From positions 1 to 22,502 of the forward strand of contig KN880767.1 in the NCBI GenBank assembly GCA_000934385.1: DNA of 22,502 nt. Direction: 5' to 3'. Positions within the stretch are counted from its first letter, which is position 1; every line of letters starts with the position of its first letter. Position numbers and translations under genes: made by a program. Under the pieces are notes generated by a model. The model made no database searches. It was given only the letters and a program-made list of their open reading frames with translations, and had not been told where the DNA came from. Below are positions 7,193 through 16,709 of this stretch, piece by piece. The stretch comes from Cylindrobasidium torrendii FP15055 ss-10. Lineage: Eukaryota > Basidiomycota > Agaricomycetes > Agaricales > Physalacriaceae.

Positions 7193-9762
7193 ATGTCGTT
7201 GGGAGACGATGTACATTCTGCGACTGGAACCAGCGTCACCGACAACGCGCGCGATATCAACGCTGAACAAGACGAGGACTACATGGGCAGAATGACGTTA
7301 GTCCCCCAGAGAATCAAAGGCCCTGGGTTAAAGCGCTTGGTGAAACGTGCATCTCGTGCGAATTCTATGGAAGAGGTGGACGACGAAGAAAGCGATGAAG
7401 AGGCTGGAGGGAGCGGTGAGTAGCGGATTCGCGATTTTTGGCCAACGCTCATCTCTAGCAGGCCCAAATCTGACGAACGCGGCTTCGAATGCGATCCCTG
7501 TCCCATCTCAGGCAATCAAGGAGACAAGGTTTGGACTGAAAAAAGATAAGACGAATGGGAAGAAGAAGGAGGATGAGTTGAACAACACGCAGATCCCTGG
7601 TGGTGCGCAGTGTCCTATCACATCTCATTGGCTATCCTTCGCTGATGTGCCCATGTAGTTTTCGACTATACCAAGAAGTACCCTCGGGATAAGCGATACG
7701 AGGAGCTTCACAATGAAGCCCGTGTCTGGCTTGCATACAACGACGAGGCGGTGATCTTTGACAATGACATGGTTGGCGAAGCGGCAGACAGTCTCGACAT
7801 CCTCCTTGTATTTGTAGGCCTCAATACTAGACGAAAAGCTGAGACTGATTGGAATTGACGCAGGCTGGTTTATTTGCCGCAGTTCTCACGACATTCGTTG
7901 CGCAGACGTCGCAGTCGCTGTCGCCTGATAACACCGCCATCACCGTATCGCTCCTCGTCGAGCTCATCGCGGTCCATCGCGCTGGGATTACAGGTTCTTC
8001 TCTCTCTGACATCCCAGCCGCTGATGTTGCACCGAATATTGCACGGACAGACATCTGGGTCAATGCGCTCTGGTTTACCAGTCTTGCATTGAGCCTGGCG
8101 TCGGCGTTGCTCGCAGTGCTGTCGAAGCAGTGGCTGCGACAGTACATTTCGTTTATCTCGGGAACTCCCCGCGAACGTGCTCTCATCCGTCAGTTTCGCT
8201 ACGACGGGATGGAGAAGTGGGCCGTACGCACCATTGTGGGGCTCCTTCCGACACTACTGCACTGCGCGCTCGCCCTGTTTCTCATTGGACTTGTTGTCTT
8301 CCTCTCACCTCTCCAACATGGTATTGCCATTTCTGTCGGAGTCATCTCGGGGGCGCTCTTCGCCGCCTACATCTTGTTCATCTTCATAGCGATCGTTTAT
8401 GTCTAGTCACCTTATCGCACGACATTCTCCGATATCCTCTCTACTTTTTTTCGCTGGCTCTTCAACAACACCTACCACTTCTTCCAGGCAAGGTTGTCTT
8501 TGCGGAAGATTGCGCTGGCGCCAACCGCTCGGGCTGCTGAGCAGGCATCGGCGGTGTCTCTCGAGGAGCATCCCGCCGCCATTCAAGCATGTAATGCTCT
8601 TCTGTGGCTTCACAACACTACAGGAAGTATGTCCGCAAAGACACTGATCATGAATTCGCTTGGTGCATTTCCTGTTGAATTTTTTCATGGCTCCGCACAG
8701 CAAGCCATCTTCGCCCAACTTAGCAATGGATGCGGTCCTGAGGAGGACGCTGCCTCGACGTGGATGCGGAACTTTCCGCGTAATTCTGTTCACGATTTTG
8801 AGCACATGCTCAGAATTTTGTGTCATTCCGAGCATGCTCTTCATGTATATGTCCAAACAGGCGGCGCCGAAGATTATTTCGAGCTTGACGCCGGTTTAGC
8901 GTTAGCCTGTGCTGCTCTAGAAGTGGAACCGCCTTTGCAAATTCAGCTAAATGCAACAGAGTGCTGTAGTGCCAATCTTACAGGGCTACGAGAACTTTTT
9001 CATGAAGAGGTCTCTTACATTCTAAGCTGTCGTCGTTCATTCAAGAATGCAGGCTCAGTCAAGAAGCCCTATGTCTCTATCATAAAACTACTTGGCACTG
9101 CTTCCCCCGTTGTATGGAGAATGCTCCTTCAGCAAAGTCATTGGCTCGGTTGCCTGTCTCCGCGCAGCCTCGATGAATGGCCCATGGAGGTCGATCTTCG
9201 GGCATATCTGGAGCTGATAAACGAGGCACATTCTTTGGACTACCGGGCTGAACCGTCTATTTTCCAGAATTCTGTCGACTTTCTTACCTTCTTGTTTCCC
9301 ATCTTCAAAGAACTCGGATGGTACAACAGGGACCCTCGAGACTGGTGGCCTCACAAGTCCCTGATCCCCCTTCTTTATCACCTCTCCAACAAAGATGGCG
9401 AACTCACGGGTGACTCTCCGCCGCCCAACGAAGACGCAGTCTGGGAACCAGCCGTCTACCCGTCGGAATGGCCACCGCTTCCCGCTCCTACCTGGGCGGA
9501 AGAATGGGAGGCTGCGGAAGTTGAGTGGAAGTCCCGGGAGGCGGAGAGAGAGGCGCGGGGAAAGACCCGGGAGGCGGAGGATGATTTGCGGGTGGTGTGG
9601 AGAGGGTCGGAGATCTCTCAAGAAGAGGAAGAGGCAAGAAAGGCAATGAGGGGGCGGGGAGGGGGCGAAGGAGGATTTGCGAGTGGAGTCCGGAAGTTTG
9701 TCCGCGAGAAGTTTCGCGGTGGCGGTGAAAGGGTCGGAGGCGATGATTCTGCGATGGTATAA
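7193..9762 (+). pseudogene. DUF6535-family membrane protein, copy 2, interrupted by one in-frame TAG
   Basis: Exons are 7193-7415, 7462-7602, 7659-7813 and 7864-9762, with introns of 46, 56 and 50 bp in the same phases as copy 1. The frame would give 805 codons but carries TAG at 8404-8406 (codon 354). The aligned codon in copy 1 is CAG, in the context IVQLQSPYRTTFSDIL; here the context is IVYV, stop, SPYRTTFSDIL. Every other codon to 9762 is open. A terminated product of 353 aa would keep all four hydrophobic segments and lose the soluble C-terminal half. The N-terminal exon is acidic (EEVDDEESDEEAGG). The lesion is a single C-to-T change, so decay is recent, or the stop is a read error, or the short form is functional. 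Confidence 0.85.
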
Positions 9763-9822: not shown

Positions 9823-9831
9823 CTTTCCTAT
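9823..9831. repeat. Left target-site duplication, CTTTCCTAT
   Basis: This 9-mer is repeated exactly at 16701-16709, directly outside the inverted termini. The uninterrupted paralogous locus has a single, one-mismatch copy at 2797-2805. Confidence 0.88.
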
Positions 9832-9850
9832 TAGACTCGCTACCATTCGT
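9832..9850 (+). repeat. Left terminal inverted repeat
   Basis: TAGACTCGCTACCATTCGT pairs with the reverse complement of 16682-16700. Mismatches fall at positions 4, 9, 10, 16 and 19. The first base follows directly on the target-site duplication. Confidence 0.82.
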
Positions 9851-10265
9851 CCGCTGAGAGCTCACGATACGATGGCAAAGGGCACGCCACCGAAAATTCC
9901 TTTTACGATATGGATTTGATGATCTATCACAGAATTTCTTTTTTGGTTCGGATGGTGTGATGCGGGGTGAGCTCGAGCGAACGACTGGGGAGCTTGAGCC
10001 CGGTTTTAGGGGATCGGAAATCCCGAAGCTTCCGACGGAACGACTTAGCCAAATTTACGCTCTGGTGCACAATGCTTGTATACGCCACGCTGTATATCCC
10101 TCACGACAACGCGTACGCAATGGTATTCTGAGTTCCTTTTGCTGAATATACTCCTTACTCCATGGGAAAGTGTAGACGTGAGATAAATTGAGTTAATATA
10201 TACCAATTTGCGATGTAAGTCAAGTCCAAGATGCAGCAAGAAGTAGATGTAGACTTGGGAATGGG
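9851..10265. other. Left non-coding end of the transposon
   Basis: No supported gene lies here. The stretch holds the left subterminal repeat (9977-10050) and then AT-richer DNA that must contain the helicase 3' UTR and polyadenylation region. No single polyadenylation signal could be fixed. Confidence 0.6.
9977..10050 (+). repeat. Left subterminal inverted repeat
   Basis: This stretch aligns with the reverse complement of 16575-16649. Colinear matching blocks are GCGAA..CG.CTGGG, CTTGAGCC, a G-rich spacer, and GACTTAGCC. The arms are almost the same length (74 and 75 bp). It lies 145 bp from the left end, against 51 bp for its partner. It is a candidate transposase or helicase binding region. 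Confidence 0.7.
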
Positions 10266-12957
10266 CTAATCGAGGCCATAGGTATCACGGAATGTATTGT
10301 GGAAAGTCATAGAAGTGGATGGAGTGTGTGTAGTAGCAGGGGAAGTCCGTGTACTCGAGGACGATGGCACGGCAGTTTGGGATGGAGATGAGGATGGATA
10401 GAACAAATGAGCGGCATGCTGACCATACGAGTTCCAATTATATGGGAATGCGGCGGGATTTGTGTTTGCGGCTCCCGGGAATGCATAGTGGTGGAAAGAA
10501 GTCGGGGATGCGGCGTAATGCGGCCTATTCGAGTGCGACGAGGCCGCTGGCAGTGCCGGTGACAAAGGCCATGGATGTTGTGAGTAAACCGGATGGCTGG
10601 TCGACGGCATCGTAGGTCCTTCGATGTTTGTGGTGGGAATTGAAGCATGGGTGGTGGAGGAAGGAATCGAAGTGTACTGAATTGAAGTTGCACCTCGGGT
10701 TTGGCCTCGTGCCATCAACGAACCTGCGACGTGTACATCTTGCCTTTGCACCATCGCTTGTGCCGAGGGCTGAGGTTGTGTGTCGCTGTTCGCCAGCGCC
10801 GCAACAGTGTGAGCATTTCGACGCTGCCGCATCCGTGATGGATTGCTGAGACCTTCATCAGATGTTGGTATTGGCGCCTTTCGTTTGCGGGTTGCTTTTG
10901 ACTCGGGAAGCTCTGGGATATCCAACTCGGCCAGCAACTTGAACAGGTCGTCGGCATAACGCGTCGCCCACTTCCACTGACCTGCCAGAACACGATCAAA
11001 CTTGGCGCGATCGTCTTTGAACGGGCCCACCGACGCCAAAAGGTCAACCGTCTTGTTGCACAGGATACCCGAGGCACCCCATGGTACATTTGGAAAGTGC
11101 TCCTTTTTGACTCGCTGACGCCAGTTCTGCAGTTGGACTTGCACCAGCAATTGTGGGTCTCCCTTCTTGATATTTGTGCGACGTGAGGCCTTCTTGAATG
11201 GACCGGGGCGCGTACGGTCGAGCAGTTTTGGGCAGCAAAGGTCGCAACATTCGGCAGTGGGTGCTGAAGGTGCGTCAGCAATTTGTGCATTGGAACACAG
11301 CCAGACTGACCAATCGTATCATTATGATAGATTCCCTTGAGGACAAGACGGCGGCATACACCAGTCTGGACAAGAACAAGTAGTCCTTCATCAGTTGCTT
11401 CAGCATTACAAGGTGGTTGGTCTCTCTTCCAGATAGTGTCCGTCATTCCTGAGATCCATCCCCTTTCAAGGCCCCTCGATATCGCATACTGCTTGACGAC
11501 TTTCTTGTCGCGCCCGCCCGAGCCGCCAAGCTTTGACTTGCGTTTCGCTTTCCCCGTCTTCGCTTTCCCCTTTCCTTTTGTCTTCTCAGCTGTACTCTCT
11601 TCCTCTGCTGATACTTCCCACAGATCCGTGTTGAATGCGGCACGCTCCACTAGAAGAACAGCCAGACCGACTCGTCCAAGTCCGCGTGCCGCGCGCCCAG
11701 CTCGTTGCACAAACGATGACACCGTCCCAGGGAGCTTCCACTGAACCACCACATCGATGTTTGGGATATTGCAGCCCTAAGAAACTATCAGCCATTTGTA
11801 CATGGTAAGTACATGCACACATACCATCCCCGCTGCATCCGTACAAACCAGAACACGAATTTGACCCTCACGAACAGCTTGCATGGCAGCGGCTCGATAC
11901 TCTTTCGAATGTGCGGCGTTATAAGGGCGAACCAGACCCATCGAGCGGAGGTGTGTGGGTAGGAGAGAGTTCAGGTGGTCTTCGATTTCGGTACCCTGTG
12001 CAATGCTGTCGGCATATACCCAGGTGAGTGGAATTTCGTCTGGTTTATTGATGCCTTTTGGGATAACAAAGTCTAGGTCGCGATAGGTGTTCATGGGATG
12101 CTCTATCGAGCGGACGACTAAAGATACATTGGGGCGGTCGTTGCCCACGTCGATGTCAACATAGCCATCCTGGCCATCCCGCTTGTCGAAGTCGAGTTTT
12201 GAGAGTACGTCGCGCTTGACACGCCCCGAGAGTGTAGCTGACATGGCAACAATAGATGTCTTTGGAGGTAGGTGTCCGCGAACTTGACCCAAGCCACCGT
12301 ATAGCTTGCGGAAGTCGGCACCCCAGTGCGACACAACATGGGCTTCATCAACAATGACGGAGAGGACCTTTCGCGTGAACGTTGAGTTGCGCATGACAAT
12401 GTCGGAGAAGCGTCTGGACAGGAGAAGCTCGGGGGAGATGAGGATGATTTGGTATTCGCCGTCAATGATCTTTTGCAGTGCCTCGGGAGAGCAGCCGCCA
12501 TGGCTGCTGTTGATGGCGATGGCGTTGAGCTTGTACTCGTCACGAAAGGTGTTCACCTAGAGCAACATTATGGTGAGGTTTTTCAGTCATTTGCATTGGG
12601 ACACACCATTTCGTCCTGCAATGCAATTAAAGGCGAGACCATAATGCTAACACGACCTTCAGCAGCGGGATGCGCGAACGGACCGGCCGCGACGCAGGTT
12701 TTCCCAAACCCGGTATATGCGTGAAGACAGACATCGCGCCCTTGAAGCTGGGCTGTCATTGCAGCAACCTGTGCGTCGCGCGGCTTATGCTGCCAGCCCC
12801 ATTTTTGCTGACATAGCTCGCCTAGGTTCTTAAGCTCCTCGTTGGTAGGGATGTGTGGTGGTGGTAGGATGGGTTCTGATTGGGGTGATTTTCGCTTCAT
12901 TCCGCGCCCGCGTCGGCGGCGGGCAGTGTCTTTGCGAGGAAGAGATGGTGCAGCCAT
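10266..12957 (-). CDS. RecQ-type DEAH helicase of the transposon
   Basis: This is an ATP-dependent superfamily 2 DNA helicase, expected to unwind DNA in the 3'-5' direction. Exons in transcription order are 12957-12607, 12556-11825, 11776-11311 and 11263-10266, with introns of 50, 48 and 47 bp, giving 848 aa. Visible motifs are WGWQHKPRDAQ (motif 0, about 53-63), AYTGFGKT (Walker A, 80-87), VSPLIALQDEM (Ia), DEAH (187-190), SATL (223-226), TDAAGMGCNIPNID (motif V, spanning intron 2) and QRAGRAAR (motif VI, 385-392). A RecQ zinc subdomain follows: CRRLVL, then CCDLCC at 522-527 across intron 3. HRDC is not seen. The last 200 or so residues are Ser/Pro/His-rich. No motif is missing, so it is probably functional. 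Met20 (12900) is an alternative start. Its role in transposition is inferred from its place inside the termini. Confidence 0.9.
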
Positions 12958-13010
12958 CAGTGTCTTAGTTCATGGGCTACGATCATATTGAATCTAACCT
13001 TCCTTTGATC
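12901..13010. promoter_or_regulatory. Compact divergent promoter of the transposon genes
   Basis: The two genes are head to head. Their outermost ATGs (12957 leftward, 12972 rightward) are 14 bp apart. If the next in-frame Mets are used (12900 and 13011), the gap is 110 bp. All of the shared 5' control sequence therefore fits in this short interval or overlaps the coding ends. No TATA box is evident. Confidence 0.5.
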
Positions 13011-16000
13011 ATGTCGTCGAATCTGAGCTGTTCCCCCGTGACAGCCAAAGGTGTCGAGGGCGAGAGCGGCATTGATGAGCCATTTGCCAATACGCAGACC
13101 AGTGCACTGTTCAATTTGGACCAGTTGCTTTCATTTTCGCCTGGCTCTCAGTCACGGTCGCCATCGCAGTCACCGCCCCCATCGCCGCTTGGACACAAGG
13201 CATCTCTATCAGCACTTTCGGTTCGGTGGCCCTTTGAGGTGCCCAATCCATCCACTCCGGACAATTCCAAGCCCATCGACCTAGTGGCACTCACCTCGTC
13301 TGGGCCAATTGCGAGTTCGCCAATCCGGGGCAGGAACAAGAAGGAGAGAATGATGTCAAGGAAACAGAAAGGACTGAAGCATCGTGCTCGGAATGCAGAA
13401 ATACGAAAGAAAGAGAAAGAGGTAGCAAAAGAGAGCAAGCGGAAGGCACAGAAGGAGATGAGTGTGCGGCGCGGCTTGCACCAGGCGCGCGATAATACAC
13501 CTCTCTTCAAGCACGTACTCGCTTTACTTAAATCCAACCAAGTCAAGTTCAGCGAGCTTGTGTTCTACGTTCTCGACCCAGCACACAAGCAAGGCCTCAT
13601 TCGCTATCATGAGTTTCTGCGACCTCCTTCAAATGTAACCCGTACGCTCAGCCTCATTTACCGAGCATCACGAGATACTGTGCATGATTGGACTGTGGGG
13701 ATTGTTAGCCGCAATATTCGACGCGAGGCTCGTGCCATTACTGCCAGTCAGGCTCTGCAAACTCACCATCGCGCTCTCGGTGGCAAGTTCTTCACCCAGT
13801 TTCGCCCCGACAATCTCAGGAAGCGCCTGCAGCTTGTCATGCCAACAACCTGGAAAATCATCACCTCAGTCGCAACCAATCCAAAGTACGAGAAGAGCTA
13901 TGGACCAGCACGCCAAGCGCGGAGAAATAATGTGAGTAACGGCAGCCACCCCATCTAACATGTCACATACTAATGAGCTATCCAGGTCCTCACCTCGTCG
14001 CTTATGCAGCTTCTTTCCGAATGGAGTCAAAAGAACAACCTCTGGAAGAAGGTCATAACTCTGTACTGCTACGCAACTGGGGCACAGCGCCAGAATGTAG
14101 AGGTGCTGTCGCATATAGGGCTCGCAGAGACATACAAGGGCATGACAGATACCAAAGTGCGCCATGCCAAGAAGACAGCAGCCAGTGTGACGCTTGAGGA
14201 CATAGAGGAAGCAGCCCAACAAGATGCTTGTGGCAAAGCGAGTGTAAAGAAAGGAACCTTGCGGCAGCTTTCCGATGACATGCATGAGGTGAGTAGATAT
14301 CTTGAATGCTTGCTTGCATCATCTGATAGGTGTTCGTTAGACATCCAAGGCGCTTGCAAGCACCGGGCTATTTGCCTGCGTGTACGACAATATTAACATA
14401 TATTCCAAAATTGCCGAACAACTCATTGGTCGGAAAGGTATGTATTATCTTATATATTTCATCAAATCTTAGTATCGGCAGATGCGCAGGAGAATGGTAC
14501 TACTGCTACTATCTATCCGCTCTGGAAGGCCAACCTCAGCGACATGAAGACCACTGAACTGATCGATGCCTTTGAGAAAGCCACGCCACTCGAGATCGAC
14601 GACATTATTCACTCGCCAACTGAGTCTCAAGATTTCCGTACCTGTTTGGTGCATACAATACTTCGTATCATCATTCATAATGGTGGACCTTCCTTCGACC
14701 GCTTCCGCACCGAGCTTGACAAGAGCCAGCCAACGACAGACTTCAAGATCGACGTACACAAAACCGAGATGCATCCCACGCCAGCATGGCAAATTGACGA
14801 GTCCACTATTGTGGGAAATGCCGAGTTCCTTGAGACACTGTATGATCATCTCGGACTTCGCGCAGCGCAGGACTTCCCCGATACTGTTCGCTTCGTTGCT
14901 GGCGATCAGCTCTCGGTCACGCGAATCGATTCACTTGTTAACATCCGTGCAGGACAAGAGGGTGGATTTGGAGGCTTCCGCTGGGTTGTCACTATGCTAG
15001 GCAACTTTCACGCAAAGATTGCGGACACGCACGGCTTCTTTGAGGTTCATTGGGGTGCTGGCGTGCGAAACCCTGGCAGCCTTCATTTCCATAACACCAT
15101 TCTCGACCGTATTCCTATCACGCTTTCGAGTCTTCCCCCCTTCCAAACATGCCGTGACCTCATTTTCCTTTCGCTTTATGCACGCATACTCGATTGTCTC
15201 ATTCTAATCTCAGGAAAAGGATCTATAGATGAGATTGTGACGGAGGAAACCACGTTTGCCAACCTTTATAGATTCGCAGAGCGCATCTATGAGCGGTTTG
15301 TTGATGTTGATATGGTTGAAGTGTTACGGGACGAGCGTGCAAACGCAAAATCAAAGGGCAAAGATCCTACCAAGGAGAAGAAGGGTGATATGGTGTTCGA
15401 GAATGCGGTTCTCTTCCTGCGAGACGCACTTATCTCACGCGAGTTCACCGATGCCATCAAGGCCGGTGATTCTGGCCGTGTATTTATGGTGCTAAAGGTC
15501 TGGGCGCTGGGATTTCGCGGTAACGGGCGCACAAAGTACGCTTATGAGATGCTGAGTGTGATCCATCGCATGACCACAGTTTGGCCCAAACCTATTGTGT
15601 ATGTGCTATTCCAAATTCATGTGCATTGGCTGACTTTTTATAAGCGAAATTGTTATGAATAACTGGCTGGTGAACACAACTGGAAACCCAAACTCTTTTC
15701 TTGAGGCCGACCGCGCTCAAGAACATACAAATTATTGGATCAAGGTAACACTTGTTTTAAGAATCTAATCTATGAGCTGCTTTTCACAACACATTGCAGA
15801 AATTCTACAATGCTCATTCCAGCAATGCCTCATGGGATTGGCTGGGAATGATCACTCCATGCATTGGCATCCTGCGCGACCTAACGCGCAGCCTGAACGG
15901 CTATCTCGGTGCCGATCTTGGGACGAAGCACCAGTCACCTGACCGCACCACCGATATCCAGACACTCATGACCAGTCTGCGCCGTTACCAAGTCCACGAC

Positions 16001-16471
16001 ATCATTCGTGGCCGGGTTCTTGATGGCGACGCTCAGGTGGTTGATGCCTTGACCCAAGGTCTTGCAACATTGACCGATGGGTCAGACAATCCGCTCGACA
16101 ACTACAACGCCACATTTGTGCGTCTCCAGTCACGCCAACACCTGCAGCCTCTATTCCCCGTGACACCGTCCTCATCTACACCAGTGGTGCCTGCACCTGC
16201 CGCTTCCTTGTCTACGGTTCTTCTCAATGACCCCGACACAAATCCGGTTACAAGCATTGTCGGTGACCAAGAACTAGTCAGCACAATTGAAGTCACCGAA
16301 AATGCATCAGACTCTAGTGACGACGAGTCGGAAGCGGAACCCGAAGATATAATTTTCTCTGGGTGTGATGCGACACTTTCTCTCCTCCCAGACGAAGATG
16401 TCGGCCTCGACATGGATCTCATGGATGATTTTGAAGATTCTGGCTCGGAATTAGACAGTGATGTAGACTAG
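12972..16471 (+). CDS. DUF6589 protein, candidate transposase
   Basis: Exons are 12972-13931, 13986-14288, 14341-14437, 14482-15598, 15645-15744 and 15800-16471; introns are 44-55 bp; the product is 1,082 aa (1,069 aa from the ATG at 13011). The N-terminus is Ser/Pro-rich, followed by a Lys/Arg-rich stretch (about 119-168) suited to DNA binding or nuclear import. The DUF6589 core is recognised from VYDNINIYSKIAEQ (435-448) with DAQENGTTATIYPL across intron 3, then VAGDQLSVTR (D595), GNFHAKIADTHGFFEVHWG (628-646) and NNWLVNTTGNPNSFLEADRAQEH (831-853). The C-terminus is acidic (about 1,030-1,082). DUF6589 has no assigned function that I can cite. D437, D595 and E846 sit where a split RNase H-like DDE core could place them; this is a hypothesis. 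All six exons splice in frame, so the gene is intact. Confidence 0.9.
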
Positions 16472-16574
16472 ACATGATAGTTCAGTGGTATATATCTCAT
16501 CTAAATATTTTGGAAGCCTCCCAGACCCTTGTCACCGGATTTTGACCAAATCACCAATTTCGCGACGTTCAAAC
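16472..16574. other. 3' flank of the DUF6589 gene inside the transposon
   Basis: Short non-coding stretch between the TAG stop and the right subterminal repeat. It is AT-rich at 16480-16515 and presumably holds the polyadenylation site. No further gene is seen. Confidence 0.6.
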
Positions 16575-16649
16575 GGCTAAGTCATTCGTCACAGAGCGTT
16601 ACATGGTGTTACCCCCGATGTCACGGCTCAAGGTTCCCAGCCGCTTCGC
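16575..16649 (-). repeat. Right subterminal inverted repeat
   Basis: Partner of 9977-10050. On the plus strand it begins GGCTAAGTCATTCG, passes through GGCTCAAGG near 16625, and ends CCCAGCCGCTTCGC, in the same order and with nearly the same spacing as the reverse complement of the left arm. Confidence 0.7.
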
Positions 16650-16681
16650 CAACCGGAAATAGCGCAGCCCGGCCCGGCGAA

Positions 16682-16700
16682 GCGGATGGTCACGAGCCTA
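16682..16700 (-). repeat. Right terminal inverted repeat
   Basis: On the reverse strand it reads TAGGCTCGTGACCATCCGC, matching the left terminus at 14 of 19 positions. It abuts the right target-site duplication. Confidence 0.82.
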
Positions 16701-16709
16701 CTTTCCTAT
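16701..16709. repeat. Right target-site duplication, CTTTCCTAT
   Basis: Exact repeat of 9823-9831. It is followed by GTTTTATGTCTTTCACCCCGC, which continues the paralogous 3' flank seen at 2806-2826. Confidence 0.88.

Follow-up and report, generated by a model that had tools for sequence, protein, structure and literature searches.

The closest described relatives of the locus treated here are transposons that carry a helicase gene. Within the Academ superfamily, the helicase-encoding AcademH lineage (Kojima, 2020, Mob DNA 11:15) has target-site duplications of 9 or 10 bp and the AcademX lineage has duplications of 3 or 4 bp, a difference tied to the presence of a helicase versus a nuclease (PMC10045372). 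AcademH elements are low-copy in Basidiomycota, Ascomycota, and Mucoromycota (PMC10799480), and putative Academ elements are listed for the mushroom Marasmius oreades (PMC8290104). KolobokH, known only from fungi, combines a RecQ helicase with a DDD/E transposase, and Kolobok duplications are TTAA-specific and 4 bp long (PMC9587614). The AcademH traits are given as stated in papers that cite the original description. Here we analyze contig C337 (22,502 bases; hereafter the window) of the 29.3-Mb Cylindrobasidium torrendii FP15055 ss-10 genome, in which a RecQ-like helicase gene and a gene for a DUF6589 protein lie within one insertion. We are fairly confident in reading this insertion as a 6,869-bp DNA transposon of the AcademH lineage, with TAGRCTCG ends, a 9-bp duplication, a DUF6589 protein that is predicted to be a DDE transposase, and a RecQ-like helicase that likely aids it. 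Its features are as follows:

9832 to 16700, no strand assigned: whole transposon, 6,869 bp, defined by its ends, duplication, and empty site
9823 to 9831, no strand assigned: left copy of the 9-bp target-site duplication CTTTCCTAT, exact, with a single copy at the paralogous empty site
16701 to 16709, no strand assigned: right copy of the 9-bp target-site duplication CTTTCCTAT, an exact repeat
9832 to 9849, + strand: left inverted terminus TAGACTCGCTACCATTCG, the same end as in copies C59, C339, and C353
16683 to 16700, - strand: right inverted terminus TAGGCTCGTGACCATCCG, the same end as in copies C59, C10, and C302
13011 to 16471, + strand: DUF6589 gene, 1,069 amino acids in 6 exons (introns 13932-13985, 14289-14340, 14438-14481, 15599-15644, and 15745-15799), from the spliced model, PF20231, the predicted fold, and conserved acids
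10266 to 12957, - strand: RecQ-like helicase gene, 848 amino acids in 4 exons (introns 12606-12557, 11824-11777, and 11310-11264), from the spliced model, domains, and relatives

The insertion at 9832-16700 is a real and complete two-gene DNA transposon, and its boundaries at 9832 and 16700 are exact to the base. On the + strand, CTTTCCTAT matches in the window only at 9823-9831 and 16701-16709. The terminal pattern TAGRCTCGYKACCATYCG, which was composed from the element's own two ends, matches (at up to 3 mismatches) only these two ends in the window, while shuffled sequences gave a mean of 0.24 matches and 0 of 100 reached 2. The window was also scanned for inverted ends that lie 0.8-12 kb apart, agree at 6 or more of their first 8 positions, and are flanked by exact direct repeats of 8, 9, or 10 bp; the 9832/16700 pair ranked best, with 14 of 20 bases matching (runner-up, 12). 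The inserted state is the derived one, because the joined flanks align straight across the junction, at 71% identity, to the uninterrupted paralogous region at 2329-2891, where the 9-mer is present in one copy, there as CTTTCTTAT. A preliminary description of this DNA had proposed termini, a 9-bp duplication, and two intact divergent genes belonging to a single transposon; the exact ends, the empty site, the intact spliced frames, and the further copies described below bear this out.

The surroundings of the insertion contain tandem related genes, at 721-2730 and 7849-9762. The region of the first is the empty site, and the element lies ∼70 bp past the second. The first of these genes encodes a DUF6535 domain (Pfam E 1.9e-46); for the second, the Pfam scan covered 8407-9759 and gave no match.

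Both genes of the element were spliced with GT..AG introns picked by eye, and together they cover 10266-16471, or about nine-tenths of the element. The DUF6589 frame is intact once spliced (1,069 amino acids; the database model, P0001, has 1,053) and carries the DUF6589 domain (PF20231) at E 1.1e-137, with nothing further in a Pfam scan at E ≤ 1. When the structural model of this protein was re-aligned, DDE transposases ranked first and the top 16 rows were all DDE enzymes, in a listing from which the absence of a family excludes nothing; the structure alignment took in 77 of the 120 listed DUF6589 proteins. The first matches were hAT (Hermes), the P element, and Transib/RAG1, all of which have a helical insertion in their DDE fold. 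We know of no helicase partner described for any of these three. The likeness to them is one of fold: the DUF6589 protein differs in having no sequence match to any PDB chain (a profile search of the PDB gave three matches only, at E 1.7 to 7.4), and the hAT and P models, which are contained in Pfam, were unmatched in the Pfam scan. A BFVD search likewise gave no match at E ≤ 0.001. Two aspartates, D408 and D566, are nearly invariant among DUF6589 proteins and are kept in all four other DUF6589 loci of this genome, while candidates for a third conserved acid are E817, D819, or E823 (P0001 numbering), short of which the pieces at C266 and C40 stop. The protein is thus predicted to adopt a catalytic fold of the RNase H type, in which D408, D566, and one of these three serve as the acids, and, as had been proposed beforehand, it is probably the transposase of the element.

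The helicase frame is also intact once spliced (848 amino acids; 829 in the database model, P0121), with DEAD (E 3.5e-22) and Helicase_C (E 1.2e-15) domains in Pfam. Its closest PDB relatives are RecQ, WRN, and RECQ5, in agreement with its earlier designation as RecQ-like, and it matches the RecQ family model TIGR00614 at E 3.7e-38 with 131.5 bits, under the curated cut-off of 219.8. Behind the helicase core, C483, C503, C504, and C507 are conserved without exception in the 21 homologs, of 120 listed, that were aligned, and these cysteines may form a RecQ-type zinc site. In the mechanism we propose, the DUF6589 protein would act as a DDE-type cut-and-paste enzyme that pairs the TAGRCTCG ends and cuts them; the cut ends would be joined to target strands 9 bp apart, and filling of the staggered gap by host repair would yield the 9-bp duplication. 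The RecQ-like helicase would unwind the ends or repair intermediates, and likely helps in excision or gap repair.

The ends of the element recur elsewhere in the genome, with at least five places for the left end and at least seven for the right (the window's own included), which resolve into four insertions and short partial matches. Besides the window element, these insertions are C59, a 1,299-bp internally deleted copy with TGTTCGCAT at both flanks, and two split copies, each interrupted by contig ends so that its middle is missing, namely C353|C10 (with GAATTGCCC common to both flanks) and C339|C302 (with GTTTCACAC common to both flanks). The pairing of the halves is inferred from the shared 9-mers. 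The right ends of the two split copies are 98% alike mutually and ∼87% identical to that of the window. Copies were accepted only when homologous sequence stood behind the end or a duplication flanked it, because matches to the terminal 15-mer (≤2 mismatches) do not outnumber those to its reversed control across the genome (122/132 versus 141/164).

Two further observations concern the termini. A mini-element of 81 bp, which has TAGGCTCG ends and is flanked by the 9-bp duplication GGTTTGTCT, lies near C105:25986-26000; ends at C270, C329, and C487 are almost identical to one end of this mini-element, which suggests a small non-autonomous family. At C69:112398 and C222:17, an identical terminus with an identical flank occurs on two contigs, and this sharing could reflect overlapping contigs, allelic contigs, or a duplication.

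The C. torrendii genome has at least five DUF6589 loci, and a helicase homolog adjoins four of the five: the gene pairs are divergent in the window and at C17 and convergent at C40 and C136. At C266, where the DUF6589 match begins ∼800 bases from the contig start, no helicase was found in the 9 kb examined. C40 is a complete element of a second family, 6,682 bp in length, with the duplication GCCGATCGC and TAGWCTCG ends, so that TAG-type termini with 9-bp duplications recur within this genome, as had been anticipated. C17 (212227-218218) is a divergent DUF6589-helicase element with 301-bp inverted repeats, 99.7% identical and starting TAGTCTCAATAG; the contig halts exactly at the right terminus of this element and only one flank is readable, perhaps because inverted repeats of this kind break assembly. 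As the window, C40, and C17 ends all carry it, the end motif TAGNCTC is common to three families. Two candidate ends were set aside: the TAGACTCG site at C136:325 probably does not mark the end of the element there, since DUF6589 matches already start at 233, and an inverted repeat of C17 first taken as a possible end sits within the 301-bp repeat. Separately, a diverged RecQ-like helicase occurs near a contig end at C46 (135872-138026), with no DUF6589 in the stretch examined; a partner gene may have been cut off where the contig stops.

Linkage of DUF6589 and helicase genes is present in many Agaricomycetes. We compared the best 120 of 361 DUF6589 matches with the best 120 of 512 helicase matches, and counted a pair as co-located when the protein records gave the same species and the same contig size in bases. 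By this measure, 38 of the 120 listed DUF6589 homologs, from 28 species and with the window's own pair included, lie on the same contig as a helicase homolog from the list, where a partner missing from the lists is no evidence of unlinkage and co-location on megabase contigs is weak evidence of linkage. Among the listed homologs, 13 of the 35 on contigs shorter than 120 kb were matched to a helicase, as were three of the six on contigs shorter than 12 kb (5,792, 6,886, and 7,141 bases). The helicase NP233_g1884 and the DUF6589 protein NP233_g1885 of Leucocoprinus birnbaumii are consecutive, and in Rhodofomes roseus the helicase EVJ58_g10196 adjoins the DUF6589 protein EVJ58_g10195 on a 9,263-base contig. 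DUF6589 distances and helicase distances are correlated across 35 matched pairs (r 0.88, with 0 of 5,000 permutations as high), a value open to inflation by shared species ancestry. The remaining pairs of the 38 were excluded for having two helicases (P0016) or for lying together on one contig with two candidate helicases (P0012 and P0046). The nine within-species distance comparisons also track, and the nearest neighbor agreed in 16 of the 35. No DUF6589 locus was found in the viral_contigs and genome_contigs collections. The preliminary description had expected the two genes to be head-to-head neighbors; the linkage holds, both in this genome and among the listed homologs, while the head-to-head order is not general, with two of the four linked loci of C. 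torrendii being convergent.

The most likely placement of the element is in AcademH, the helicase-encoding lineage of Academ, given that the helicase (here DEAD plus Helicase_C), the 9-10-bp duplication, the low copy number, and the basidiomycete host all agree with published traits. The duplication is 9 bp in the window, C59, and C40, and by matching flanks in C353|C10 and C339|C302, and the four readable insertions amount to a low copy number. The comparison is one of printed traits, as reported in the citing papers. The preliminary description had known of no transposon built from such a pair; helicase-encoding AcademH elements were, however, in print, with 9-10-bp duplications and low copy numbers in Basidiomycota (Kojima, 2020; PMC10045372; PMC10799480). 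The word DUF6589 was unfound in the literature collection searched, and so no printed link between it and a transposase was obtained from that collection, other literature being outside the search. Three observations weigh against the reading we favor: Foldseek alone gave no significant match for the DUF6589 model, the listed DUF6589 and helicase proteins of Coprinellus aureogranulatus are on separate contigs, and a second Rhodofomes roseus DUF6589 gene, on a 5,524-base contig, is without a listed helicase.

The best surviving rival, which we nonetheless regard as unlikely, is that RecQ-DUF6589 elements form a superfamily of their own outside Academ. DUF6589 proteins would then be the DDE transposases of a helicase-partnered group with TAGNCTC ends, 9-bp duplications, and genes either divergent or convergent, in which a RecQ-like helicase was gained independently and moves along. 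The resemblance of the element to Academ is one of traits, and another transposon lineage, KolobokH, also has a RecQ helicase (PMC9587614). A search for longer DUF6589 relatives returned only DUF6589 proteins and none bearing XPG, the nuclease of AcademX. Against a separate superfamily, the helicase, the 9-bp duplication, the low copy number, and the host group all match AcademH as printed in the papers cited above. AcademX itself, named with AcademH as the other Academ lineage (PMC10045372), differs in its 3-4-bp duplications and its nuclease, as opposed to the 9 bp seen here and to the two proteins here, for which Pfam scanning gave no nuclease.

It is very improbable that DUF6589 instead binds DNA in an accessory role and has an RNase H fold that has decayed, catalysis being supplied from elsewhere. 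The Foldseek result and the third acid, which is not settled among E817, D819, and E823, would fit such a protein, but the element has only two recognizable genes, the other one a helicase, and both the near-invariance of D408 and D566 (including the four other genome loci) and the 16 leading DDE rows argue for catalysis by DUF6589. MULE duplications are also ∼9 bp; a MULE identity was rejected, as the MULE profile was unmatched in the Pfam scan of the DUF6589 protein. That Pfam model is pfam10551 (PMC8290104). KolobokH shares with the element a fungal host and the combination of a RecQ helicase with a transposase, but an identity with it is scarcely credible and was rejected, since there is no profile match, the two genes here are separate, and the duplications are of 9 bp with TTAA in 0 of 5 (window, C59, C353|C10, C339|C302, and C40), as opposed to the 4-bp TTAA of Kolobok (PMC9587614).

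While a transposon of this kind has probably been described already, the main gain of this analysis is a likely function for DUF6589, a widespread family of unknown function and a common label in mushroom genomes, with at least 361 matches. If DUF6589 is a transposase, DUF6589 genes, together with those RecQ-like helicase genes that are linked to DUF6589, would be genes of mobile elements and should not be counted as host gene families; were the separate superfamily true, hundreds of Agaricomycete proteins of unknown function would be its transposases. The intact gene pair with its defined ends, the 1.3-kb internally deleted derivative, and the empty site provide material for testing what purpose a RecQ-like helicase serves in a transposon.
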